A DNA stretch of 25,612 nt. Origin: a virus. Under the pieces are notes generated by a model. The model was given only the letters and a program-made list of their open reading frames with translations. It ran no database searches and was not told the DNA's origin. Of the stretch, positions 13,021-25,556 are shown piece after piece. How positions within the stretch are numbered: position 1 is the first letter of the stretch; each line of letters starts with the position of its first letter. The stretch spans positions 1 to 25,612 of the IMG/VR virus record IMGVR_UViG_3300031251_000093; one strand, given 5' to 3'. Position numbers and translations under genes: made by a program.

Positions 13021-13938
13021 TCATTTCTTTATGAGGTCATTCATCCAGCCGGCGTCTTCAATCGTTTGGAGGATGGCTTCAGCCGTGATCTGGTTGCCAT
13101 AACGATTCATGTGCACATCCTGATCCGCGACGTGCCAAGAGAAACATCCTTGGATATCTATCCCATTAATTATTCTATTTCTCATCGTAGAGTATAAATC
13201 TGCGTATTTTGCGCTTTCAATCAGAGACGCATCACTCTCATCCTGCCTGGTCGGAACACTCCACGGCATTGGGACACTGATGGTGTCTCCCCCCGAACTC
13301 CAATTGAAATATGGCGGATTAGGGAAAATGATTTTTGAGCAGCCATTTGCCCGTAAGTAGGAAGCAATCAATTCAAGATTACCCTTCGTGCTGATGACCA
13401 CTGGATCCCCCATTGCGGGAAGATAACCAGAAGATCCTTGAATTGTTACGACATCAGCAGCGACGCCAACGACCGTTTCTTCATTCGTGTTGATCGAGAT
13501 CTTGCTTCCAACGGAGAAGCTAGATCCCAGCCCGCTCCCAACCAGGAATGATTTTGTAGATGTGTCAAACGGAGAGGCGACAGCGGTCTGATGGCAGGCC
13601 AGTTGATCATTGGTCCCACCATAAACGACGGCTATTGTAGGTATCTCATACTCAAACATATCCTTGATTCTGCTATACATTTGAGAAGTCGTATTCCCAC
13701 TTATTCCCAAATTCCTTGAAACGACATCTCCGCCCTTTTGATTTATCAAAATGGCAAGCTGAGCCGGGTAGAAATCGTCCATCACCATGCCGTAGCTTGT
13801 GTGGAAGGTATGGCTGTCACCAATAGCGACAATCGCTTTGGGACGGTCCGGAGCTGGTGTGGGCGCCTGACTTGAACCAGCACAGGCAAGCAATAAGGGG
13901 AGGATGATCAGAGCCGAGATCCACTTGGGAAATGCCAA
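13021..13938 (-). CDS. SGNH/GDSL-hydrolase lipoprotein, 305 aa
   Basis: A TTG start at 13938 is supported by an AGGGAGGG site. A basic start and hydrophobic stretch end in a lipobox, LLAC with Cys19, so the mature protein should be lipid-anchored. SGNH blocks: AIGDSHTF (Ser42), SRNLGISGNTTS (block II), VYGGTND (G108, N110), and ADQDVHMNRYG with H276. The Asp normally three residues before this His is replaced by Gln273; D272 and D274 flank it. Residues 124-184 look like an inserted small beta domain of the type seen in phage virion proteins. SGNH enzymes remove acyl groups, often O-acetyls of polysaccharides. It follows the fibre gene by 33 bases, and its DNA is visibly AT-richer. A tail accessory or lysogenic-conversion role is possible. 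Confidence 0.75.
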   Translation of the reverse strand: MAFPKWISALIILPLLLACAGSSQAPTPAPDRPKAIVAIGDSHTFHTSYGMVMDDFYPAQLAILINQKGGDVVSRNLGISGNTTSQMYSRIKDMFEYEIPTIAVVYGGTNDQLACHQTAVASPFDTSTKSFLVGSGLGSSFSVGSKISINTNEETVVGVAADVVTIQGSSGYLPAMGDPVVISTKGNLELIASYLRANGCSKIIFPNPPYFNWSSGGDTISVPMPWSVPTRQDESDASLIESAKYADLYSTMRNRIINGIDIQGCFSWHVADQDVHMNRYGNQITAEAILQTIEDAGWMNDLIKK

Positions 13939-13971: not shown

Positions 13972-16251
13972 CTAGATCCCCTTCGCATCCAGGCGAGCGG
14001 AAAGTTCCTGCACAGCCTTGATGAGGGGAGCCATCAGTTCCTCGTAGCGCAGGCCCTGCCGGCTTTCGGGGTTGGATGGGTCATCCTGGGTCCAGACGGC
14101 GCAATCCCCCACCTTGGCCGAATCCAGCGCAGCCTTCACCTCCTGGGCCAGGAGGCCATAGTGGGTGCGGTTACCTGGGACGGGAGTCACCTTGATCACC
14201 GCCTCCTTCACCAGATGCCCCTCCTCATCGGTCTCGGCTGGCTCCACCACATCCACCTGGTTCCGGCCCACGATCCAGCGGTAGGACACGGGGCGCAACG
14301 CATTAATGAAGGCCAATCCCAGTGGAGAATCCACCACATCGGTCTTCTCGCGGGCGTCGGACGTATTGATTGTCGCGGTGGCGGCATAAAGCTGGGAGGG
14401 CCTGTTGGTGCCATTGCCCAGCGTCACAGCATTGTCCACCGAGGGCTTGAAGGCGTTGGCATCCACCTGCCACTTCGTGGCGCCCGCGATATTGAAATAG
14501 GTCACCGTGAAGCTTTGGAGGGCAGTGGTATTGCACCCAGTGGAGTTGCTGTCGCCGAGGTAGAGGGCAGTCCCGACCAGGCTAACCAGGGTGGTCTTTG
14601 CCGTCGCACCAGCGTTGATCTGCTGGAACGCCTGATTATTGTCGAGGAAGAAATTGGTTCCATGCCATCCGACCGGGCCGCTTCCCGCGTTGATTTCCTG
14701 GGTGACGTTTGAAGAGTCGCCCCCAAACCGAACAAGCTGCGCAGCACCCGCACCGATGTTTCGGCGGATGATGTTCACGCCGCCGCCGTTGTTGGTCAGC
14801 GTCGTGCCGAGCTGCCAAACGGTGGTCTCGTCGATCGTCACGCCAGAACCGCAGTTTGCGGTGACGGTCATATTCCCGGCAATCTGGCACCCGGAGAATG
14901 TGGTGTTCGACTGGTCAACGGTGATCACGCCCTTGATCCGGGCGCCGATGATCTTGGGTCCGCCGCTGCCGGCTGGGGCCGTTCCCGTCATTGTGGAAAG
15001 CTTGCCGAAAGCGCCCCCCATGATGGTGGCCGCCCCGGTGTCGGTCATCAAAACGCCGCCCGTGGATTGGGAGGATTCGATGTTTTCGAGGTGATGATAG
15101 AGGCTGGCGGTGCCGGACACGCCGATCTCGATGTCGTAGCCCGTGCCCGTGACATCAGCCGTTTGCCAGATCGGATTGGAACCGATGATTTCGAGCTGTC
15201 CTACTCCCTGGAAGAGGAGTGCCCGACCATAAGCCCACATCGAACCCGTGTTGACGCACCTGGCGTTCTGGACGGCGGAGGTGAAAACGATATTGTGACC
15301 GGTGAGGGTGGGCGTGGACGCATCACCCATGAATTTCAAGCCGTTCAGCTCGAATTCCCATGGGGCGCTGATTGTGAGGATGGGACCGTTCGCATTTTTC
15401 TTGATCTGGACGAACCCCATCCCGATCAGGCGCTGGCCGGAGGTGCTCGCGGTCAGGTTGTTGGCAAGGTAGGTCCCATCGGGGAAGATGATGCTTCGCC
15501 CACTGTTGATGGCCTTCTGGATGCCCGCTGAAGAGTCATTGGTCCCGGTGGGGTCCACGCCGGGGAAGTCCGTGACGGTGACACAGTCGGCGTTCTTCTG
15601 GGCCTGGGTGCGCACTGCCGCGCCGAAGGCCGCCAGGAAGCTGCCGGAGGACGCGAGCCAGCCAAAGGCGGTCATGCTCTCGCTTGCCACGGTGCCGGGG
15701 ATGGTCGAGAGGTTGTACGTGCCGTTCCCACCCGTGCCCGTCCCAAAGCTGATGATGGTGGTCCCGAGCGGGATCCCCACGCCGGAGACCTGCTGGCCCA
15801 CCTGGAGGATGCCAGCCGTCGCTGTAACGGTGAGCACGTTGGTGGCGCAGCTGGCCGTGATGGCAAAGGGGCCGCTGTCGGGATTGGTGGAATTGTTCGC
15901 GCACAGGTTGACCCAGGAGACCGAAGGGTTGCTCGCGCTCTGAAGCACGGCGCCGATCCCATAGCCGCCGATGGCGGCCGCCAGGGCCGCGCTGAAGACA
16001 TATTCCCCGCCGGCATTGAGCCAGACCGTGTGCTGCGTGATGGCGTTCAGGATGCCGTTCATGTCCTGCCCGCTTGGCGGCACGCCCCCGGCCAGGAGGG
16101 GGAGCATGGTCACGTTGGGGAAGCCGTCGGCCAGCGACGCAGCAGGGGAGACGGAGGCCGTCGGGATGACGTTTTTCCCGCCGAAGTTCGGACCAGAGCC
16201 AGATGCGAACGGCTGCGAGAGCAGGGATGGATAGGTGGGCGCGGTCGTCAT
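13972..16251 (-). CDS. Tail fibre/tailspike with beta-helix and S74 chaperone domain, 759 aa
   Basis: AAGGAG precedes the ATG at 16251. Order: residues 1-120, virion-attachment region (PSGQDMNGILNAITQHTVWL, then NNSTNPDSG); 131-194, an inserted beta module shared with baseplate J and sheath; 223-600, a pectate-lyase-like beta helix starting FPGVDPTGTNDSSAGIQKAI and IIFPDGTYL, the head of many polysaccharide-degrading tailspikes; 631-759, peptidase S74 intramolecular chaperone with SDAREK (Ser631, Lys636), which self-cleaves after trimerisation. It should bind or degrade the host surface polysaccharide. Active-site residues of a depolymerase cannot be picked by eye. Confidence 0.9.
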   Translation of the reverse strand: MTTAPTYPSLLSQPFASGSGPNFGGKNVIPTASVSPAASLADGFPNVTMLPLLAGGVPPSGQDMNGILNAITQHTVWLNAGGEYVFSAALAAAIGGYGIGAVLQSASNPSVSWVNLCANNSTNPDSGPFAITASCATNVLTVTATAGILQVGQQVSGVGIPLGTTIISFGTGTGGNGTYNLSTIPGTVASESMTAFGWLASSGSFLAAFGAAVRTQAQKNADCVTVTDFPGVDPTGTNDSSAGIQKAINSGRSIIFPDGTYLANNLTASTSGQRLIGMGFVQIKKNANGPILTISAPWEFELNGLKFMGDASTPTLTGHNIVFTSAVQNARCVNTGSMWAYGRALLFQGVGQLEIIGSNPIWQTADVTGTGYDIEIGVSGTASLYHHLENIESSQSTGGVLMTDTGAATIMGGAFGKLSTMTGTAPAGSGGPKIIGARIKGVITVDQSNTTFSGCQIAGNMTVTANCGSGVTIDETTVWQLGTTLTNNGGGVNIIRRNIGAGAAQLVRFGGDSSNVTQEINAGSGPVGWHGTNFFLDNNQAFQQINAGATAKTTLVSLVGTALYLGDSNSTGCNTTALQSFTVTYFNIAGATKWQVDANAFKPSVDNAVTLGNGTNRPSQLYAATATINTSDAREKTDVVDSPLGLAFINALRPVSYRWIVGRNQVDVVEPAETDEEGHLVKEAVIKVTPVPGNRTHYGLLAQEVKAALDSAKVGDCAVWTQDDPSNPESRQGLRYEELMAPLIKAVQELSARLDAKGI

Positions 16252-16260
16252 GCTGGCTCC

Positions 16261-16926
16261 TTAATGGGGAAGGGGAACGGTGTAGTAGCCGCCAGAGAAG
16301 AAAATTCCCTGGCCGAATGGTTGGAGGCCGGATCCTTGGAAGCCGAATCCGCTTGGAGGACTAAAGCCGTTGATGAGGTATGCCTGCACACCGGCGGGTC
16401 GGGGGATGGCGCCCGACTGGGTGATGATGCAGAGGCTGCCGATATCGAGGTTGAACTCGAAGAGCAGGAGCATGGCCATGTTGCCCCGATCCAGGGCGTA
16501 GCACTTCCCCCCGGAGCCGAACAGGGTGGTCAGGATCTTGTTGATCACCTGGGCCGAGCACCTCGAGATGTTGGCCAGGGCCTTCATCAAGATCAGGGTT
16601 CGGAAGGTGGTGTCGTTCAGCTTGAAGACCGTGCCGTTCCCGCCGGTCCAGAAGGGGGCCTGGCCGAAGGGCTGCCAGGAAGCGCCCTCTTTGAAGCCCA
16701 GGTATGCGGCCGACTGCAGAGGCATATTGATGGTGCGCTGCACCCCCACGATGCGCCCCAGCACGTCGAGCCCATAGCCCTGGGCCGTGCTCACGTTCCA
16801 AACCATGTTGTAGAAGTTGGTGAGGTTTGTGGACGGGTCGATATAGGCGTTCATGTTGTTGATGAGCGCCATCAGGATCGGGCTGTTCGCGTACTGCGCG
16901 ATGATGGTCTGTTCGAGGTCGATCAT
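16261..16926 (-). CDS. DUF2612 baseplate protein, 221 aa
   Basis: The start overlaps the stop of baseplate J (ATGA). The N-terminal LINNMNAYIDPSTNLTNFYN and the GYGLDVLGRIVGVQR block (50-64) are typical of DUF2612 phage proteins, which occupy the place of P2 gpI between the J wedge and the fibre. TTFRTLILMKALANISRC (105-122) is the second conserved helix. The C-terminus is Gly/Phe/Pro-rich, FGFQGSGLQPFGQGIFFSGG, and resembles an earlier stretch at residues 76-97 (LGFKEGASWQPFGQAPFW). The protein probably links the baseplate to the fibre. Confidence 0.85.
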   Translation of the reverse strand: MIDLEQTIIAQYANSPILMALINNMNAYIDPSTNLTNFYNMVWNVSTAQGYGLDVLGRIVGVQRTINMPLQSAAYLGFKEGASWQPFGQAPFWTGGNGTVFKLNDTTFRTLILMKALANISRCSAQVINKILTTLFGSGGKCYALDRGNMAMLLLFEFNLDIGSLCIITQSGAIPRPAGVQAYLINGFSPPSGFGFQGSGLQPFGQGIFFSGGYYTVPLPH

Positions 16927-18332
16927 GCGAGTGTCAGGGTGACGTTCCCGATGACGGGAAACTGGTTGATGTTCAAGCCCTGGGAGGTGGCGGCGGGCGT
17001 TCCGGTCCCCACCAGGACGCTGAGGATGTTGACTCCGGGCAGGAGTTGGTTAATCGTCGAGAAGAACCGGGAGCCGTAGATCGTGGCGCCGATGCTGGCT
17101 GCAGGCGCACCGCCGTCTTTGCCGTTGAAGGCCATGACCAGGCCGTTTACAGCATCGCTGAGCAGGGCCAGAGCGTTGGAGGGCGGGTTGGAGGCCGCTG
17201 CCAGGGTGACAGCGATGTTGATGGGCGCCGAGATGGGCACCGTAAAGCTCACGCCGTAGGTCGGGTACGGCGCGGGATAGCTCGTGTCCTGGACATAGAC
17301 CGTGGTGGCGGCGGTCATGGCCTCACTGGGAACGATCCCGACCGCGACATTCAGGTTGTAGGTCCCTGCCCCGCCAGTACCGCTTCCCAGGGATGCGATG
17401 CTCGTCCCCGCTGAAATGCCGCTCCCGGAGATGGTCTGGCCCACCACCAGGGCGCCATAGGCGACGCCAGTGACCGTCAGGACCGTTCCGGAGGCGCTGG
17501 CCGTGAAGGAGGCGCTGGGGGCGTAGCTGCAGCCGATGTCCTTCTTCGCCCAGATGGCCTGGGCGATGGCCGCCGGCGTGCCGCCCACCACGGCCACATA
17601 GAGAGAGTTGCCCGGGATGGTTAAGCCGCCGATGAGGGCCGCCGTGTTTGACGGGTTATCCACCAGGTAGGCCGCCGTGACGCCAGTGGCCAGGATCGCG
17701 GCCCGGATCGCCGCCAGGCTGCCGTTGGCGTTCAGCGCCACCGAGGCGGATCGCCGGGCCTCGAACTGCTGTGCGGTCTCCACGGCCTGGCCGAGGACGA
17801 CTTGGATGGGGCTGGTGATGGTGTCCCATCCGGGGATCGTCTGGTAGATCGAGAGGGGCCCAACGAAGGCGATGGGGCCTGTGGCCTGCGCGGCGAAGGT
17901 CAGGGTCACCGTGCCGCCTGCACCGATGGTCCCTCCGGAGGAGCAGGTGTAAAGGTTCCCGGCCGCATCGGCGGCGACGGCCACGCCGGCGGGGATCACC
18001 GTCCCGGCCAGGCCGCCACAGACGCCGGAAACCTGGGTCGAGATGGCCGGAAGCCGAGTCATGAAATACAGGTTCCCGATCGCATCTTGCATCCGGCCCT
18101 GGGCGTACTGGGGATCCACGGAGCTCACAATCGCCAGGAACTGCGCGTTGCAGTCGGCGATGATGGCAGCCAGGCTGCTGGCCAGCTGGCCCTGGGGCGT
18201 GCTCAGGCCCAGGTTGAGTCCGCCCCCGAAGGCGGTGTTGATGTCCGCCTGGGCCGCGGCCAGGATCGTGGCCTCGTCCGGAGCCGTGAAGCCGGTGGGG
18301 CCGAGGGTGGGGGAAGGAACGGTGGTGCTCAT
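16923..18332 (-). CDS. Baseplate J-like wedge protein, 469 aa
   Basis: AGGAGAT precedes the ATG at 18332. Baseplate_J hallmarks: FGGGLNLGLSTPQGQLASSL (residues 35-54), GRMQDAIGNLYFMTRLPA, TVIPAGVAVAADAAGNLY (111-128), QAVETAQQFEARRSASVALN (182-201) and a C-terminal INIAVTL domain. Residues 273-343 are an extra beta module (VLTVTG...LVVGQTISGSGI...GTGGAGTYNL) placed where other J proteins have a short hairpin after 'KKDIGC'; the same kind of module is in the fibre and sheath. J-type proteins form the baseplate wedge ring that starts sheath contraction. Confidence 0.9.
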   Translation of the reverse strand: MSTTVPSPTLGPTGFTAPDEATILAAAQADINTAFGGGLNLGLSTPQGQLASSLAAIIADCNAQFLAIVSSVDPQYAQGRMQDAIGNLYFMTRLPAISTQVSGVCGGLAGTVIPAGVAVAADAAGNLYTCSSGGTIGAGGTVTLTFAAQATGPIAFVGPLSIYQTIPGWDTITSPIQVVLGQAVETAQQFEARRSASVALNANGSLAAIRAAILATGVTAAYLVDNPSNTAALIGGLTIPGNSLYVAVVGGTPAAIAQAIWAKKDIGCSYAPSASFTASASGTVLTVTGVAYGALVVGQTISGSGISAGTSIASLGSGTGGAGTYNLNVAVGIVPSEAMTAATTVYVQDTSYPAPYPTYGVSFTVPISAPINIAVTLAAASNPPSNALALLSDAVNGLVMAFNGKDGGAPAASIGATIYGSRFFSTINQLLPGVNILSVLVGTGTPAATSQGLNINQFPVIGNVTLTLA

Positions 18333-18341
18333 CCGGATCTC

Positions 18342-18692
18342 CTAGAAAGTGACGCCGAGCGCCTGGCCGTTGGTGTCGATCACATTCACGACCCCGGAGA
18401 TCTTCCGGCCCACGAACTTTGTGATGGTGGCCTGGGCCTTCACGACCCCGGGCACGGTGAGGGCCGCCTGCACCAGCAGAGCCTGGATGAGGGACGGCGA
18501 GTAGGGCTGGGCCAGGACGCTGGTGAAGTAGGGGATCCCCTGGGACGTGTCGTAGTAGACCTCCCCTAGGAAGGTAGAGATGGCCGAGGCCACGTCCTGG
18601 GCGATCGCGTTCGGGCCGGTGGCCGTGGCGATGTTGCCATTGGCGTCGATCTCCAGGTCCCAGGCCGGAGAAGAAAGTGCGATCGTGTTCAT
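18342..18692 (-). CDS. gpW/gp25-like baseplate wedge protein, 116 aa
   Basis: The ATG at 18692 overlaps the spike stop (ATGA). WDLEIDANGNIATATGPNAI followed by AQDVASAISTFLGEVYYDTS, GIPYFTSVL, and ALTVPGVVKAQATITKF reproduce the pattern of gp25/gpW-type (DUF2634-like) sheath-initiator proteins. In T4 and P2 this protein nucleates the sheath on the baseplate. Length about 116 aa is normal. It directly precedes J in the operon, as in other contractile-tail clusters. Confidence 0.85.
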   Translation of the reverse strand: MNTIALSSPAWDLEIDANGNIATATGPNAIAQDVASAISTFLGEVYYDTSQGIPYFTSVLAQPYSPSLIQALLVQAALTVPGVVKAQATITKFVGRKISGVVNVIDTNGQALGVTF

Positions 18693-19498
18693 CCGACGGG
18701 CCCTCCGGTGCTGCCGCCGCCCGTCTGGACGCCGGTATGGGTGTGAGCGGTGAGGGTGTGGGAGCCGGACTTGACCTCGGTGTCGGCGGTCAGGGTTCCG
18801 GTGGTATGCAGGTCCCCGGTGCAGGTGGAGGTGCCAGTGATGGCCATGCCCGCCTGCCCGGTGATGGCACCCTGGGCCAAGACGGTGGCCTTGGCCGTGA
18901 CCGCTCCATCCACCTCCATGGTGGACTGCAGCGTCGCCGCTCCGGACACCTGCAGGGTGCCGTTCAGGACCACGTTGGCGTTGATGGTAAAGGTGGTGGC
19001 ATGGAGGTCCGCGGCCGCGCCGGCCTCGATGGAGATCCCCGCGTCGTCCACCACGATGTAGTGGGCCGGGGACTCGGCCATATTCCACCCGCCGAAGTAG
19101 AGCCCATCGGCCATGTCGAAGCGCCGGGCGGAGCCGGGGTTACCCTGGGCGCCGGAGGCCTGCACCGAAGAGATGTCCCGGTCCGCGAAGACGCAGAAGC
19201 CGATGTCGCCTGGCTTGGGGTCGCAGATGACCGCGTTGGCGCCGCCCTGCAGCCGGAAGAAAGGCAACCCGTGGATGGTGGTGTGGGGCACGGCCGAGCC
19301 GTCGCCCGCTACCTGGTTTACCAGGGGCAGGACGTCCACGGTGCCCACGGCCGCGGTGCGCCCGGCGGTGTGCACCGCCACCACCTTTACCAGGGTGGCC
19401 ACGTTCAGCTTGGCCAGCATCATCTGGACCACGAACGACATCTCATTGAACGGGGTGTTCCCGCTGGCCATGCCCTGCTGCCCAAAGACGCCGCCCAT
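18689..19498 (-). CDS. Baseplate central spike (gpV/Gp138-like), 269 aa
   Basis: The start at 19498 is chosen because the preceding gene stops at 19500 and the longer frame is a shadow of it. An OB-like N-terminal domain (residues 10-130: LVKVVAVHTAGRTAAVGTVD, VLPLVNQ, HTTIHGLPFFRLQ, CDPKPGDIGFCVFADRD) matches the Gp138/gpV N-terminal fold; residues 160-255 are a beta-helical needle with repeats such as LNGTLQVSGAATLQSTMEVD; the C-terminus ends with HTLTAHTHTGVQ, the His pairs that hold an iron ion at the tip of spike proteins. It forms the trimer that pierces the outer membrane. Confidence 0.85.
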   Translation of the reverse strand: MGGVFGQQGMASGNTPFNEMSFVVQMMLAKLNVATLVKVVAVHTAGRTAAVGTVDVLPLVNQVAGDGSAVPHTTIHGLPFFRLQGGANAVICDPKPGDIGFCVFADRDISSVQASGAQGNPGSARRFDMADGLYFGGWNMAESPAHYIVVDDAGISIEAGAAADLHATTFTINANVVLNGTLQVSGAATLQSTMEVDGAVTAKATVLAQGAITGQAGMAITGTSTCTGDLHTTGTLTADTEVKSGSHTLTAHTHTGVQTGGGSTGGPVG

Positions 19499-19499
19499 G

Positions 19500-20372
19500 T
19501 CAGTTCCCCACCCAGCTGGCCGAGACCTTGGAGAGCCACTTGCCGCTCGGGTTCTCGCACTCGAGCTCGTGGGTGAGGGCATTGATGCGCCAGGTGCCGC
19601 AGGCGACGGGAACCACGGACTGGACCGCGCAGAGGCCGCCCAGCTTGAGGCCCGGGTTGTAGAGGCAGGAGAACTTGATGCCCTTCTTGTCGAAGATGGG
19701 GTATTCCTTCAGCCCGGTGGCCGCCGAGATCAGCGGGGCGGTCCCGGCCCGGGGGGCGCCCCGGGGGGCGATGAACAGGGTGCCGTCGTCGATCCCGAAC
19801 TCGATCCCCGCGGCGGCCACGACGGCCACGGCCTGCTGGTAGGCGCTGCCGTGGAGGTAGGGGCTCACCAGCTGGGAGGCGACCCCGTTGTTCTCGAAGG
19901 CATAGCCCATCTGGCTCGCCAGGGAGGCCATGATGGTCGCCACTGGCGTGCCCCCCTTGAAGCTAGCGGGCTTCACCGGGGCGATGGCCGGGTAGAAGCC
20001 CTCGAGGGCCTCCAGGTGGAAGAACAGGTTCGGCGGGCTCTGGTAGCTCGTCCAGGCCCCGGTGATCTCTCCCTGGAAGGCCACGGCCAGGCCGTACTGG
20101 TCCCCGGCCAGGATCTGCACCAGGCTCTTGTGGACGGCCAGGGCCTTCGCGGACTTGCCCGGGAGCGTCGTGAGCATGTTCATGTCCGCTTCGAGCATCC
20201 CGTAGACCTTCAGCTTCGCCTTGTTCTTCGAGGGGTGGCCGCCCTTCTCGATCTCCACTTCCATCCGGAGGCCGGTGACCTGCTTCGTGTTGTGCGTGCC
20301 GTCGAAGGTCCCCGAGGTCAACGTGAGGTTGGCCTGGAGGATCTTCTTGGTGAACGATGCGCCTTGGGTCAT
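19500..20372 (-). CDS. Baseplate hub protein (gpD/gp27-like), 290 aa
   Basis: The N-terminal beta domain (residues 12-60; TGLRMEVEIEKGGHPSKNKA, LKVYGM) followed by AGDQYGLAVAFQGEITGAW, and a middle part with GTPVATIMASLASQMGYAFE and GIEFGIDDGTLFIAPRGAPR (190-209), is the plan of tail-hub proteins of the 'late control D' kind, which form a ring below the tube and hold the spike. Four cysteines near the C-terminus are unremarkable. Its position upstream of the spike fits. Confidence 0.75.
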   Translation of the reverse strand: MTQGASFTKKILQANLTLTSGTFDGTHNTKQVTGLRMEVEIEKGGHPSKNKAKLKVYGMLEADMNMLTTLPGKSAKALAVHKSLVQILAGDQYGLAVAFQGEITGAWTSYQSPPNLFFHLEALEGFYPAIAPVKPASFKGGTPVATIMASLASQMGYAFENNGVASQLVSPYLHGSAYQQAVAVVAAAGIEFGIDDGTLFIAPRGAPRAGTAPLISAATGLKEYPIFDKKGIKFSCLYNPGLKLGGLCAVQSVVPVACGTWRINALTHELECENPSGKWLSKVSASWVGN

Positions 20373-20376
20373 GGGA

Positions 20377-20682
20377 TCACTTCTGGTAGATGGAGAGGGT
20401 GCAGTTCTGGCCGCCGAGGGTGACGTCCAGCTGCTGGGCCGGGATGGCCTGCAGGGGGACCTGGAGGGCGGGCGCGCCGGCCTGGTAATAGAGGAGGGCG
20501 AAGCGGCCCCCGGGCCCGATGCCGGTGTAGTCCGGATCGAGCACGCCCTGGTAGTCCGCGAAGGCCAGATGCCCGACGAAGCCCAGGTAGGGGTAAGAGT
20601 CGAGCATCGTGTTGTTCAGGCACACCACACCCGCCCAGAGGATGGTGCCGTCGATGGCGAGGTCGCAGTAGAGGTTGGCCAT
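20377..20682 (-). CDS. Baseplate plug-like protein, 101 aa
   Basis: A short beta protein: DLAIDGTILWAGVVCLNN, HLAFADYQGVLDPDYTGIGP, GGRFALLYYQAGAPALQVPL. Size, beta content and position between the Dit-like and hub genes match the small plug protein described for minimal contractile tails such as cyanophage Pam3; the sequence match is from memory of the pattern only. The ribosome site is weak. Confidence 0.6.
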   Translation of the reverse strand: MANLYCDLAIDGTILWAGVVCLNNTMLDSYPYLGFVGHLAFADYQGVLDPDYTGIGPGGRFALLYYQAGAPALQVPLQAIPAQQLDVTLGGQNCTLSIYQK

Positions 20683-20683
20683 G

Positions 20684-21208
20684 TCAGTCGTTCTTCGCGC
20701 GGGACATGACGTTGTCCCAGGTCACGGGCGGCGGTGCGGGTGGGGCCTGGGCCTGCACCTTGCCGTTCACCGACTTCGAAGCGGAGGTCGGGCTCTTGGG
20801 ATGGGGGATCGTCACCTTCGTGTAGGCCGGCGAGACCTCGCGGATCTCCTTCAGGGCCAGGTCCACCAGGAGGAGGTTCAAGCCGCTCTCGGCGGACTGG
20901 GAGTAGTCGTAGCCCTCCAGGGTGACGTTCAGGTACGTGGCCGTGGGGGTGACCACGTTGTAGAGGTTCGGGGCCCCGAGCTCAGAGGCCAGGGCGGCCT
21001 GGAATGCGCCGATGCGGGCCTTGCCGCCCACCGTGAGGCGCACCTTCACGTTGTTGGGCACGTTCACCTTGTTGTAGCTGGCGAAGCCGCCCTGCTCCAC
21101 CGGGAAGTCGCTCACCTTGGCCTTGTTGCCGATCTTCAGGTCCACGACGCTGTCCACGTCGAACACCAGGCCCCCGTTCAGGTAGTAGACGCCCCAGCCG
21201 TTGGCCAT
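20684..21208 (-). CDS. Dit-like baseplate/tail protein, 174 aa
   Basis: The start shares one base with the tape-measure stop. VSDFPVEQGGFASYNKVNVP (residues 32-51), VKVRLTVGGKARI, NLYNVVTPTATYLNVTLEGY and LVDLALKEIREVSP make the Dit-like N-terminal fold: 'DFPVE-G-F-SYNKV' and 'Y-V-TP---Y-N' are the hallmark positions. The last 50 residues are a Pro/Ala/Lys linker. Such proteins ring the end of the tube and join the tape measure to the hub. Confidence 0.75.
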   Translation of the reverse strand: MANGWGVYYLNGGLVFDVDSVVDLKIGNKAKVSDFPVEQGGFASYNKVNVPNNVKVRLTVGGKARIGAFQAALASELGAPNLYNVVTPTATYLNVTLEGYDYSQSAESGLNLLLVDLALKEIREVSPAYTKVTIPHPKSPTSASKSVNGKVQAQAPPAPPPVTWDNVMSRAKND

Positions 21209-22779
21209 CAGAACCCCCCATCCGCCTGGTCAACCAGGCCGTGCGACTTGATGGCGCCGGGCAGCTCCGCGGCGATCCCCTTGGCGTCGGTCGCCTTGGT
21301 CTCGATGTGGATGGCCCCGATGTGGGTCTCGCGGGTGCTGGTGCTGCTGGACTGGCTGTTGGAGACCGAGGGGTGCTGGGCCATGCCCGCGTGTCCCGCG
21401 TAGGCCGGCTCCTGGCCGTTCCCGGCCATGCCCAGGGTGGCGACCTTCAGGACGATGCTCCCGATCTTGGCCAGCTTGTCGCCGATCCAGCCGAGAGCCG
21501 CCTTCGCGCCGGAAAGCAGCGCCTTCCACATCTTGGCCCCGGCGCCCTCGATGACGAAGAAGGCCCGGAGCAGCTCGTAGACGATGAGCAGGGCGACCTC
21601 GCTGAAGAAGTGGCCGAGGTCCTTGCAGAGCGCCTTGAAGGCAGATTTGATTTTCTCTCCGTTCCCGGTGAAAATCCCCACGACCAGATCCCATTCGTCC
21701 ATGAAAATGGCAAAGAACGACATGATGATGTCCTTCAAGATCCCGATAACGCTCATTACCGTTCCCTTGATGGCGTCCCAGATGCCCTTGAAGAAGGCGA
21801 AGAAGCCGCCCAGCATGGACTGGCCGCCCTCGGTCCACTTCTTGAACTCCAGGTAGACCCAGGCGACGCCGGCGGCGACGGCCGCGATCGCGACGACGAT
21901 CAGGTCGATGGGCCCCAGGGCCAAGAGCCACGCGAAGGCCGCCTGGGCGCCCATGATGAGGGCGTTGACCCCGATGGCCAGGAAGGCCACGCCGATCCCG
22001 ATGAGCGCCGCCTTCACGACGCTGCCGTGGTCGCGGATCCAGGTGGAGATCTTGGCGAAGGCCTCGCCCATCGCCTGCAGGGCCGGCATCACCGCGACCA
22101 GGATCTGCCGGCCCGCGGCCGCCAGGGCCCCCTTGATGTCCAGCATGGTCTGCTCGAACTTCTCGGCGGCTTCGACCTGCTCGGCGCTGGCCACGTTCTT
22201 CTTGACGGCCGCGGTAAGGGCCTCCATGCCCTCCTTGCCCTTCTGGAGGAGCCGCACGGTGCCCTCGTCCAGGCCCAGGCGCTCGCCCAGGGCCATGGCC
22301 TTGGCCCCGGACATGTGCTCCATCTTCTCGGCCAGGAGGCCCATGACCTGGGTGGCGTCCTTGCCCTTCAGCGCGACCTCGGAGATCCCCATGCCGGCGA
22401 AGATCTGCAGGGCCATCTTGGAGCGGGGCCCGTGGATGGCGATCATGGCCAGGCGGGAGTTGAGCCCCTTCAGGCTCTGGTCCATGCCCTCGGCGCTGCC
22501 GCCCACGCGCTTCACGGCGCCCTCCATGGCCTCGAGCTCCTCCACGTCGACGTTGAGGGTCTTGGCCAGGCGGCCCGCGGCCACTTCCGCCTCGAGCTGG
22601 CCCTTCACGAACTCCACCATCGCGCCGGCCGTGGCCATGAGGCCGAAGAACTCCAGGGCGCCCTTGGCGAGCTCCTTGAACGATTCCTTGCCCTTCTCGG
22701 TCGCCTGCTCCAGGTTCCGTTCGAACCGGGAAGAGTCGAGGCCGAGGGTGACCAGGAAGGCGTCAATGACGGTGGACAT
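21208..22779 (-). CDS. Tail tape measure protein, 523 aa
   Basis: Long, mostly helical, with KGKESFKELAKGALEFFGLM at the start, a middle KKNVASAEQVEAAEKFEQTM segment, and strongly hydrophobic stretches (residues 253-312, with ALIGIGVAFLAIGVNALIMG and LIVVAIAAVAAGVAWVYL) typical of tape-measure proteins that insert in the membrane during DNA entry. The C-terminal 50 residues are polar. It starts at the last base of the chaperone stop. At the usual 1.5 Angstrom per residue, 523 residues would give a tail of about 78 nm, short for a myovirus; this is an estimate from family behaviour. Confidence 0.85.
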   Translation of the reverse strand: MSTVIDAFLVTLGLDSSRFERNLEQATEKGKESFKELAKGALEFFGLMATAGAMVEFVKGQLEAEVAAGRLAKTLNVDVEELEAMEGAVKRVGGSAEGMDQSLKGLNSRLAMIAIHGPRSKMALQIFAGMGISEVALKGKDATQVMGLLAEKMEHMSGAKAMALGERLGLDEGTVRLLQKGKEGMEALTAAVKKNVASAEQVEAAEKFEQTMLDIKGALAAAGRQILVAVMPALQAMGEAFAKISTWIRDHGSVVKAALIGIGVAFLAIGVNALIMGAQAAFAWLLALGPIDLIVVAIAAVAAGVAWVYLEFKKWTEGGQSMLGGFFAFFKGIWDAIKGTVMSVIGILKDIIMSFFAIFMDEWDLVVGIFTGNGEKIKSAFKALCKDLGHFFSEVALLIVYELLRAFFVIEGAGAKMWKALLSGAKAALGWIGDKLAKIGSIVLKVATLGMAGNGQEPAYAGHAGMAQHPSVSNSQSSSTSTRETHIGAIHIETKATDAKGIAAELPGAIKSHGLVDQADGGF

Positions 22780-22919
22780 TACTTTTCAGCCCCTTTCTTG
22801 TAGGCCATGGCCTCGTTGTGGTTGTCTACCTGGATGATTTCCAGCATGGTGTAGGCATCCTCAAGGCTATAAACGGTTTGCAGTTCCCGGAGCGTGGCCA
22901 GCCGGCGCGAAACGATCAC
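22779..22919 (-). CDS. Tail chaperone second ORF (G-T-type extension or coupled small protein)
   Basis: The frame -1 to the chaperone is protein-like from its overlap to the TAA at 22779: RIGVIVSRRLATLRELQTVY and SLEDAYTMLEIIQVDNHNEA then MAYKKGAEK. Two readings are possible: a programmed -1 frameshift at the C6 run (22928-22933) adding 49 residues to the chaperone, as in lambda G-GT, or translation restarting at the GTG 22919 that overlaps the stop as GTGA, giving a 46-aa protein. Coordinates here are for the GTG form. The position just before the tape measure is that of gpT in many tails. Confidence 0.65.
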   Translation of the reverse strand: MIVSRRLATLRELQTVYSLEDAYTMLEIIQVDNHNEAMAYKKGAEK

Positions 22920-23389
22920 TCCGATCCGGGGGGCAACATTGACGTAATTGGCGAAGCCTTCATTGCCGCCGGAGCTGGGGAGGTCGAGAGCTTGGCGGCC
23001 AGCGAAAAACCGAGGTGCAGTTCGAGCAGCTCCTTCCGCAGGGTCACGCGCGTCATGACCTCCTCGGTGTCGTCCTCGGTCAGGGCCCGGGTGAACCGGG
23101 GATTCTTGATCGGGTCGGGCTGGATCTGGATGCACCGGAACATCTCGTCGAGGAGGGGCTCCGCGAGCTCCCAATCGAGTCCGGAAAGTGCGGCGAGGCC
23201 AGCGGTGGCCACACCGGCCAGACCAGCCTCAGCGGCCCCGGCAGGCAGCTCCGCGCCCGACTTGGCCAGGGCCAGGAAGGCGCGGGCGGCCCACTTTTCA
23301 GCTTGAGCGGCGCTCATCTCCGTCAGGAGGAAGGTTTTGCCCTTGTCCCGATTCTCGGCTTCGATGGTGACGATCTTCGTTTTGCGCAT
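22916..23389 (-). CDS. Tail assembly chaperone (G-like), 157 aa
   Basis: The gene lies between tube and tape measure, the standard place of the tail chaperone. Residues 9-35 form an amphipathic domain (AENRDKGKTFLLTEMSAAQA, EKWAARAFLAL); the middle is Ala/Gly-rich; residues 90-135 (IQIQPDPIKNPRFTRALTED, DTEEVMTRVTLRKELLELHL) are a helical block typical of tail chaperones. Such proteins bind the tape measure and keep it extended while the tube is built. The 3' end contains a C6 slippery-like run and the stop overlaps the next ORF. Start ATG 23389 has only a weak GGGGAT site. Confidence 0.75.
   Translation of the reverse strand: MRKTKIVTIEAENRDKGKTFLLTEMSAAQAEKWAARAFLALAKSGAELPAGAAEAGLAGVATAGLAALSGLDWELAEPLLDEMFRCIQIQPDPIKNPRFTRALTEDDTEEVMTRVTLRKELLELHLGFSLAAKLSTSPAPAAMKASPITSMLPPGSE
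22928..22934 (-). other. Candidate -1 frameshift site in the chaperone gene
   Basis: On the minus strand G-CCC-CCC is read in frame as two proline codons (153-154) three codons before the stop; after a -1 shift the frame continues with CGG into the conserved downstream ORF. The slip leaves the A-site codon CCC unchanged and the P-site codon becomes GCC, so pairing is imperfect. A TTTTT run further upstream (about 23008-23012) is an alternative. Confidence 0.4.
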
Positions 23390-23392
23390 GGG

Positions 23393-23830
23393 CTACATCC
23401 CCGAAATGACGACGGATTCCCAGGTGATCTCGTATTCCTGGGGCTGCAGGGTCTTCTTGGCGGCGGGCACGTCGCTGTAGCCGGTGAGGCCGCCGTTGTT
23501 GAGCGTCGCCTGGAGGCCGTTGGACTGCATGGTGATGGTGCCCGAGCAGGGGATGGCGTCCCCGGCCGTGTCCATGGCGGCGGCCCAGTTGTCGAACACG
23601 ATGCCGGAGGGGCTGTCCGCCTCGAGCTTGATCTTCATCTTCCGGAGGTGCCGCACGTAGCCCTGGCTCATGTGCCCGTCGGCGCCCAGCCGGGCCTCGA
23701 CCTTCGGGAACTTGTCCAGCTCGAACATGTCGTCCGAGGCGAAGCCCTGGATGATCACCGGGGAGTTGTAGACGCCCGGGATGACCAGCGCGAGGACCGC
23801 GGTGATTGAGGTGATGGTCGGGTTGGCCAT
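23393..23830 (-). CDS. Tail tube protein (DUF3277-like), 145 aa
   Basis: AAGGAG precedes the ATG at 23830. FASDDMFELDKFPKVEARLG followed by ADGHMSQGY (residues 30-58), KMKIKLEADSPSG, MDTAGDAIPCSGTITM and LQPQEYEITWESVVISGM give the beta-rich tube pattern with the conserved 'G-DG' near residue 50 and a closing aromatic strand; DUF3277 proteins are tubes of contractile tails. Size and position directly downstream of the sheath agree. It stacks as hexamers inside the sheath. Confidence 0.85.
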   Translation of the reverse strand: MANPTITSITAVLALVIPGVYNSPVIIQGFASDDMFELDKFPKVEARLGADGHMSQGYVRHLRKMKIKLEADSPSGIVFDNWAAAMDTAGDAIPCSGTITMQSNGLQATLNNGGLTGYSDVPAAKKTLQPQEYEITWESVVISGM

Positions 23831-23840
23831 GGTGAGCTCC

Positions 23841-25556
23841 TTACTGGATGTCGATGGAGGCGAGGTTCAGCTGGTTCACGGAGCCGCCGTCCATGTACCA
23901 AAGCGTGGCGGGGGGGCTCAGCCGGTTGTTCCGCTGGTTCGAGGTGGCCGGGAGGACCTGCAGGTAGTAGCCGTTGTTCAGCAGCGGCTGGTCGATGGCC
24001 AGGCCCGCGGCCGAGTTCACCTGGGCGATCTGCAGGGCGGAGAGAACCACGCCCGTGTTGATGACCCCGGCGGTCAGGCCCGCGGTGATGGGCCCGAGGC
24101 AGGCGGCCTTGATCATCCCGTAGCCCTGGGGGTTGTACGGGACGGCGGGGAGGTTCGTGAACATGTTCACCAGGGCCAGCTGCAGGGCGCTGTTCAGCCA
24201 GATCGCGTTCACGTAGCAGTCCAGCCAACCGAAGACGCCGCTGAGCTGCCCGTTCCAGAAGAACTGGTTCGTGCTGTTGGCGGTGGCCCAGTTCCCGTAG
24301 AAGTTCGTGCCGTTCGCGATGGCATTGGCCGAGGAGACCGGGTCGTTGATGCTGGGGGTGATGCCGGTGCCGGACTTGTAGGCGATGGCCGCCCGGCCGT
24401 TCTTGGCCGAGAAATTGATGCTGGCCACGAAGCCCAGCACGAAGGCCGCAGCGTTGGGGTCCTGGTAGACCGCGCAGGTGCCGCCCAGGCTGCTGACTTG
24501 GCAGTAGTGGCTGATGCAGGTGGTGCTGGCGTTGGTGGAGACGATAGTGGGGTCGGAATCGTAGGGGGCATAGACGAACTGGCCGCCGGTCCCCGCGCAC
24601 CAGGTGGCGAAGGCCTGCTTGTCGGCGATGACCGGCTCGAAGCAGGTGGTGAAGCACGCCCAGTTCGAGGTGTAGACCGCCAGGGCCGTCATGAAGGTGC
24701 CGGGGGTGTTGGCCGCGCTGCCCGGGCTGATGGTGCCGGCGTTGAGGCCCAGGGTGAGGGCGTTGGTGCCGGTGCAGACCGTCACGGTGCTGGTGGCGCC
24801 GGTGGTGGGGCTGGTGATGGTGAAGGCGTTGAAGAGGCTCGACCAGGTGCAGGTGGTGGAGGCCGGGCAACCGCCGGTGACCAGGGCCGCCTGGATCAGG
24901 GCGGCCGCGTTGGAGAGGCTGGTGGCGGTCGAGAGGTTCAGGGCCGCGACGGTGCCGGTGGTGCCGTTCACCGTGCAGATCAGGGTGCCGCTGGTGATGG
25001 CCTGGACCTGGGCCAGGGTCAAGGCGGGGACGGAGGTGCCCCGGAACCAGCCGGCGATGGCGTAGGAGGCGTAGCGGCTGAACATCAGGGCCGTGGGCTT
25101 GAGGGAGCTGCCCGTGTAGCCGTTGAAGTAGACGCTGGCCATCTGGCTCTCAAGGCAGTTCGAGGTCATGGCCGAGGCGGTGGCCTGGGTGAAGCCGGGC
25201 CCGGAGATGGTCACGGTGCCGACGCCCGTCACGGTGCTGTAGGTGCCCAGGGCGGTGATGTAGGTGCCCGGGGGCACGCCCACCGCCGTGAGGGACTGCA
25301 GCTCCTGGCCCACCGCGATCGTGCCCGAGAGGGTCTGGGTGATGGTCAGGGTGTTGGCCACGCAGGTGGCCATGATCGAGGCGTTGTACTGCCCGAAGTA
25401 GGCCTGGACGCTGGCGAGGGTGGGGAAGCTCACCGGGGCGCCGACGGGCAGCGCCGGGTTCTGGCTGAGCATCAGGCCGTTGAGCGCCAGCGGATTCCCA
25501 CCAGACGCCAGGACGGCGGGCACCACGGAAATGATGGTTGAGATGGGGATCGACAT
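23841..25556 (-). CDS. Contractile tail sheath (DUF3383-like), 571 aa
   Basis: AAGGAT precedes the ATG at 25556. The DUF3383 blocks are visible: FPTLASVQAYFGQ (44-56), SQMASVYFNGY (137-147), SRYASYAIAGWFRG, QAITSGTLICTVNGTTGTVA followed by LNLSTATSLSNAAALIQAAL (around 190), FTITSPTTGATSTVTV, and a C-terminal conserved domain with FYGNWATANSTNQFFWNGQL and VYQDPNAAAFVLGFVASINF. Between the 'YFG--N' and 'MASVYF-GY' blocks sits an extra beta module (61-131). It is the first complete gene of the tail operon and forms the sheath that contracts around the tube. Confidence 0.9.
   Translation of the reverse strand: MSIPISTIISVVPAVLASGGNPLALNGLMLSQNPALPVGAPVSFPTLASVQAYFGQYNASIMATCVANTLTITQTLSGTIAVGQELQSLTAVGVPPGTYITALGTYSTVTGVGTVTISGPGFTQATASAMTSNCLESQMASVYFNGYTGSSLKPTALMFSRYASYAIAGWFRGTSVPALTLAQVQAITSGTLICTVNGTTGTVAALNLSTATSLSNAAALIQAALVTGGCPASTTCTWSSLFNAFTITSPTTGATSTVTVCTGTNALTLGLNAGTISPGSAANTPGTFMTALAVYTSNWACFTTCFEPVIADKQAFATWCAGTGGQFVYAPYDSDPTIVSTNASTTCISHYCQVSSLGGTCAVYQDPNAAAFVLGFVASINFSAKNGRAAIAYKSGTGITPSINDPVSSANAIANGTNFYGNWATANSTNQFFWNGQLSGVFGWLDCYVNAIWLNSALQLALVNMFTNLPAVPYNPQGYGMIKAACLGPITAGLTAGVINTGVVLSALQIAQVNSAAGLAIDQPLLNNGYYLQVLPATSNQRNNRLSPPATLWYMDGGSVNQLNLASIDIQ

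Follow-up and report, generated by a model that had tools for sequence, protein, structure and literature searches.

The tail fibre, baseplate J protein and tail sheath encoded by a viral contig each carry a related beta module within an otherwise conserved block. Sequence comparison shows that the three segments are homologous, and the distribution of the module among relatives gives good support to the view that it is a mobile surface domain of the virion. The contig (25.6 kb; the whole stretch of DNA that was analysed, here called the window) contains, on its minus strand, the tail cassette of a myophage. Its genes encode the sheath (DUF3383), tube, tape measure, Dit-like, hub and spike proteins, a gpW/gp25-like wedge protein, baseplate J, a DUF2612 protein and a fibre ending in Peptidase_S74. 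Pseudomonas phages E217 and Pa193, whose virions have been solved, encode relatives of the window sheath, J, tube and hub. The initial annotation had placed the segments at residues 131-194 of the fibre (15670-15861), 273-343 of J (17304-17516) and 61-131 of the sheath (25164-25376); these coordinates translate exactly and all lie on the minus strand. Residues given for the module copies below are the best domain edges.

15667..15867, minus strand: tail fibre copy of the module, spanning residues 129-195, flanked by NNSTNPDSG and GWL (HMM E 3.7e-20; dozens of fibre homologues with an empty site)
17304..17522, minus strand: baseplate J copy of the module, spanning residues 271-343, located in the hairpin turn after KKDIGC (HMM E 6.6e-22; empty site in J homologues; AlphaFold2 pLDDT 89)
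25161..25385, minus strand: tail sheath copy of the module, spanning residues 58-132, flanked by YFG and the ESQMASVYF helix (E 2e-9 with an HMM that leaves out sheath-site modules; HHalign 98.3%; empty site in E217 gp31 and others)
13972..16251, minus strand: carrier, tail fibre with a C-terminal Peptidase_S74 chaperone (Pfam PF13884 E 1.5e-10; phrog_12796 tail fibre)
16923..18332, minus strand: carrier, wedge protein of the baseplate J type, homologous to E217 gp44 (phrog_6 E 2.5e-48; 8env_J E 1.3e-15)
23841..25556, minus strand: carrier, tail sheath (DUF3383), homologue of E217 gp31 (PF11863 E 2e-101; 9b42_S E 2.8e-18)
16261..16926, minus strand: DUF2612 baseplate protein, module-free here; homologues in L002, L003 and L030 carry one (PF11041 E 3.7e-55)
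23393..23830, minus strand: tail tube (E217 gp32-like), inner protein, module-free (PF22764 E 7e-15)

Threonine, glycine and serine make up about 48% of module residues, and this biased composition called for stricter tests of homology. The fibre and J modules are 58% identical over 67 aa (BLAST E 2e-15, z about 20 against shuffles), those of the fibre and sheath 43% identical over 46 aa (z 8 against shuffles), and the J and sheath pair reaches z 4.6 against shuffles; none of 1000 shuffles attained the observed pairwise score. A profile built without any sheath-site module retrieved the window sheath module with E 2e-9 (for 15,632 ORFs), while reversed or residue-shuffled ORFs gave no matches to the module profile at E <= 0.01. 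HHalign comparison of the sheath-only modules with an 11-member set lacking the sheath site gave 98.3% probability. Pairwise scores, profile, profile-profile comparison and controls thus agree with the earlier proposal of a related module in three tail proteins.

The module was also said to interrupt a conserved block in each protein, and module-free relatives do read straight through all three blocks. In fibre homologues without it, NNTTNPDTGGA runs directly into GW. J homologues without it show KKxxGC-xNGN-TTVTV, with a turn of three to five residues at the site, and sheath homologues without it, including E217 gp31, read YFG-xSS-xEAxxA or similar. The existence of empty J, sheath and fibre homologues clearly contradicts the alternative that homologues always contain the segment. 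The module is present in 35 of 59 distinct J homologues (24 empty) and in 24 of 53 distinct sheath homologues (29 empty). In J it occupies four sites, at core positions of about 229-236, 271, 330 and 372, and in the sheath four others, at about 57, 158, 182 and 233, either singly or, commonly, in tandem. Of these, J site 2 and sheath site 1 are the ones occupied in the window; other sites predominate among relatives. The Pa193 sheath gp32 comprises a core domain (residues 23-90) and a flexible domain (91-210) (PMC11042391). The window sheath site aligns to the core (23-90) and the commoner sheath sites to the flexible domain (91-210). Because its site falls in the Pa193 core domain, exposure of the window sheath copy is only presumed. 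More generally, the module has repeatedly entered many virion proteins that are unrelated to one another, at their ends or within turns.

Outer and inner proteins were compared in loci fetched by J or sheath, not by the module, counting distinct homologues. The module occurs in 44 of 127 proteins of the outer set (J, sheath and DUF2612 homologues) and in none of 244 of the inner set from the same loci (tube, hub, Dit-like, tape-measure, spike and gpW-like homologues), the 37 distinct tail tube homologues included; the Fisher p of about 1e-23 overstates independence since the loci are related. The contrast is indirect evidence for display of the module on the virion exterior. Genomes tend to have both J and sheath modules or neither (14/4/1/15, p 3e-5, again optimistic for related loci). 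The E217 sheath encloses the tube, whose sealing cap complex is ringed by an outer nut of gp44, gp45 and fibre (PMC10329688). Trimers of XM1 gp53 sit on the capsid surface (PMC10457771). The proposal of a mobile surface domain is supported by the four sites each in J and sheath, the many empty homologues and the presence of the module in outer proteins but in none of the inner tail proteins tested. The narrower wording, that the domain decorates the tail, is too restrictive, as neck and head proteins carry it too.

Modelling of the J module by AlphaFold2 with a 72-sequence alignment gave an all-beta structure (pLDDT 89) with long end strands (residues 5-23 and 54-74) and two short strands between them. 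The alternative named in the initial annotation, that the three segments differ in fold, is thus addressed in part, by a confident fold for the J module. The sheath module, modelled from its 7 orthologues alone, reached a pLDDT of 54, a confidence too low for use, so that its fold is predicted from homology. Matches of that sheath model to Ig-like folds were discarded. The closest solved fold for the J-module model is chain 1 of 8eci, from the capsid of Arthrobacter phage Bridgette (rmsd 1.9, 68 of 76 residues, 25% identity; Foldseek E 8e-3), with a Z of 8.5 that is just above the level common for unrelated folds. Translation-factor (IF2/EF-Tu domain 2), E1-FCCH and F1-ATPase barrels follow at Z 5-7, values also common for unrelated folds. 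No Ig-like fold is among the matches listed for this confident model, although an Ig fold is still conceivable.

At the sequence level, a Pfam scan of the 72 modules revealed no family membership. None of the Ig-like families (Big_1, Big_2, FN3, I-set and similar) scored above cut-off, the sole Ig-like match being Big_1 in one member (E 0.042). A profile search of PDB sequences returned nothing below E 0.1, and no ubiquitin E1 family appeared among the Pfam or PDB sequence matches. The module is a sequence family distinct from Ig-like domains and apparently of a different fold. Some databases label such phage segments 'E1 FCCH domain' by structural class; no description of an FCCH domain was found in the phage literature searched. 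As far as seen, PHROGs contain the module only as part of phrog_21413 and phrog_38233, which match it at profile positions of about 397-472 and 551-622.

An HMM search of the kind outlined in the initial annotation recovered 462 copies in 290 ORFs of 170 loci (72-member profile; 190 related loci searched), with none in the reversed and shuffled controls. The 72-member alignment was too diverse for collection scans, for which an 11-member alignment worked. Carriers in the related loci include baseplate J, sheath, DUF2612 protein, fibre, neck terminator (PF23961), an XM1-gp53-type capsid decoration protein and the head-closure protein Hc3 (68 family members in the sample); phrog_12985 (67 members in the sample) and the head protein family phrog_1912 are further carriers, among others. 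In BFVD predicted structures, matches were found inside an HK97 major capsid protein and in a P22 gp10-like protein, a lambda Stf-like fibre, a pectate lyase protein and a tip attachment protein. Bacterial genomes with such loci belong to Alpha-, Beta- and Gammaproteobacteria, Acidobacteriota, Bacteroidota, Verrucomicrobia and Chloroflexi, and one is an actinobacterium. Many of these genomes are metagenome bins. When four different copies of the module served as tblastn queries, none matched any of 50,697 cultured phage records, a result that does not prove absence since the low-complexity filter probably masks the query. Cultured records with J or sheath homologues were matched only outside the module, and direct reading of four cultured stretches (phiAO1, two of Bcep43, Amjad_SA) showed them to be module-free.

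The copies had been described as diverged and not recent duplications. Consistent with this, DNA of modules from different carrier families matches at 81% at best (448 modules), and module copies group by site, not by genome, which together indicate that the spread seen here is old. Recent copying between proteins of one genome found no support: the nearest neighbour at another site was in the module's own genome for 2 of 91 cases, compared with 3.4% under permutation. Identity between modules is often only 30-50%. In the closest pairs the module dN/dS (0.05-0.14) is below that of the rest of the carrier, and in more distant pairs (0.18-0.47) it is comparable to the carrier. The module is under purifying selection; such values indicate a maintained domain, not a fast-evolving receptor-binding region. 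Charged residues account for 3.1% of modules against 13.2% of the carrier remainder. Conserved positions are glycine, small hydrophobic residues and threonine, i.e. structural, and no conserved exposed polar residues were found that would form a site pointing to a ligand.

These observations are probably best explained by a promiscuous, self-folding beta domain of 65-75 residues that would serve as a plug-in decoration of the virion exterior, with a putative glycan contact. The first and last long strands are predicted to lie side by side, and such adjacent ends would allow the whole domain to replace a surface turn while leaving the host fold undisturbed. Within a clade, copies are passed down at their site, and purifying selection retains them. 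As an E217 tail contains 204 sheath subunits (PMC10329688), one sheath insertion could display about 200 copies per tail, to which a J insertion would add about 12 and the fibres a small number. We favour, tentatively, that the resulting dense and nearly uncharged Thr/Ser/Gly-rich coat makes weak multivalent contact with glycan surfaces, possibly those of the host envelope, capsule, biofilm or particles. Virion stabilisation may be a second role. Adhesion, the function suggested in the initial annotation, agrees no better than stabilisation with modules that bear hardly any charge, show no conserved exposed polar residues and occur in neck and head carriers too. On balance, we lean slightly towards the broader view of an uncatalogued mobile family, unrelated in sequence to Ig-like domains, that would act as a universal exterior tile of phages of soil, water and plant-associated bacteria and whose presence would map the virion surface.

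Stabilisation as the main role, in which the inserted barrels contact one another or adjacent subunits and, like capsid cement proteins, hold the sheath, baseplate, neck and head together, appears rather unlikely, even if it is the strongest competitor. Bridgette has dimeric capsid cement proteins around the penton (PMC13033339), and 8eci chain 1, the best solved fold match, is probably one of them. One head carrier, of the XM1 gp53 type, is itself a decoration protein that reinforces the capsid, neck carriers are not expected to meet the host, and both the frequency of tandem copies and the preservation of modules by selection would suit such a role. Specific lattice contacts are, however, difficult to reconcile with four insertion places per J or sheath family and with modules that often share only 30-50% identity. 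Many relatives do without the module, and sheath subunits have to move during contraction.

Could the domain instead spread simply because it folds by itself and is harmless at surface turns, with no function for the phage? Insertion at turns, the broad range of carriers and the lack of conservation of ligand-like residues would all fit such a tolerated passenger. Purifying selection that exceeds the carrier's own in the closest pairs, the tendency of genomes with a J module to have a sheath module as well and retention at the same site across deep divergence make it improbable. Chance similarity of low-complexity T/G/S-rich sequence, or three integral protein parts, is refuted by the controls: strong composition bias and the failure of module queries to match cultured phages by tblastn, where filter masking is probable, are outweighed by the silent reversed and shuffled ORFs, the held-out sheath match (E 2e-9), the confident J-module fold and the empty sites in relatives of all three proteins.

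The exterior decoration proposed here has several consequences. Insertion sites would show, as a list compiled by nature, where sheath, baseplate, neck and head proteins tolerate a foreign domain, and the outside-only distribution would open the long-standing question of the purpose of such decorations to tests in laboratory phages. The module also accounts for unannotated stretches in environmental phage proteins. Caution is needed in annotating by the module alone, because it is the sole basis on which two PHROG profiles match unrelated proteins. These two, phrog_21413 and phrog_38233, are whole-protein families of unknown or tail-fibre annotation in which the module is not defined as a domain.

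Several known systems resemble the module in part. Bridgette chain 1 differs from it as a separate protein of 124 aa, not an insert, and shows no significant sequence match. The FCCH domain of ubiquitin E1 (Uba1) is a similar small barrel (Z about 5-6, in the common-fold range) with an unrelated function and no sequence match. Smug et al. 2023 described homologous domains shared by unrelated phage proteins, notably receptor-binding and baseplate proteins (PMC10684548). The terms 'tail sheath' and 'decoration' are absent from the main text of that paper, and no single domain spanning sheath, baseplate, neck and head was found described in it. A functional parallel is provided by the promiscuous phage Ig-like domains, known from Hoc (PMC10385173) and as additional domains of sheath proteins (PMC9230969), for which weak carbohydrate binding or stabilisation has been proposed. 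Like the module, they are accessory beta domains on or in several unrelated virion proteins, including the sheath, and are present in some homologues and absent from others. The module differs in having no Ig-like Pfam match, in a confident model that ranks barrels first and in lying mainly inside turns, at several sites per protein family. If this reading is true, the Ig-like domains would be joined by a second family of promiscuous virion domains that is distinct from them in sequence.

Copies of the module, a beta-rich domain of 65-75 residues, were found in three sets of genes from loci related to the window (L-numbers, coordinates within each locus), listed here with a gene of the window itself:

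L051:3037-4239 and L052:5464-6666, XM1 gp53-type capsid decoration protein, three modules past residue 150
L081:2-7597, L106:5910-12797 and L103:5637-11243, very long proteins, 4-9 modules each
L136:3325-5316 and L178:1152-2138, module carriers (head-closure Hc3 gene and phrog_12985 gene)
window 13021-13938, SGNH/lipase-like lipoprotein gene, adjoining the fibre gene

Because the window and L051 sheaths are 94% identical, the window phage probably also possesses an XM1 gp53-type decoration gene with modules, located immediately beyond the contig. The head-closure Hc3 and phrog_12985 carriers occur on many viral contigs, which belong to another phage type. The very long proteins (1869-2532 aa) originate from actinobacterial and Bacteroidota bins and may be either phage fibres or bacterial surface proteins.

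Structure comparison with BFVD models also matched the module to giant-virus proteins (A0A1V0SCQ2 and A0A1V0SDM6 from Indivirus, A0A3G5AJX2 from Sylvanvirus). Among these matches, two Indivirus collagen-repeat proteins share 38-45% identity with the module. They reflect either a broader distribution or mis-binned phage sequence.

After GGTND, and before the core segment that follows, the lipoprotein has a beta-rich stretch of its own (FLVGSGLGSSFSVGSKISINTNEETVVGVAADVVTIQG...). This stretch gave no match with the module HMM and is perhaps a further, unrelated insert.

Among cultured phages, the closest J homologue is that of Acetobacter phage phiAO1 (L190), which is devoid of the module. In the phiAO1 record, catalase, superoxide dismutase, peroxiredoxin and sorbosone dehydrogenase genes are interspersed among phage genes.
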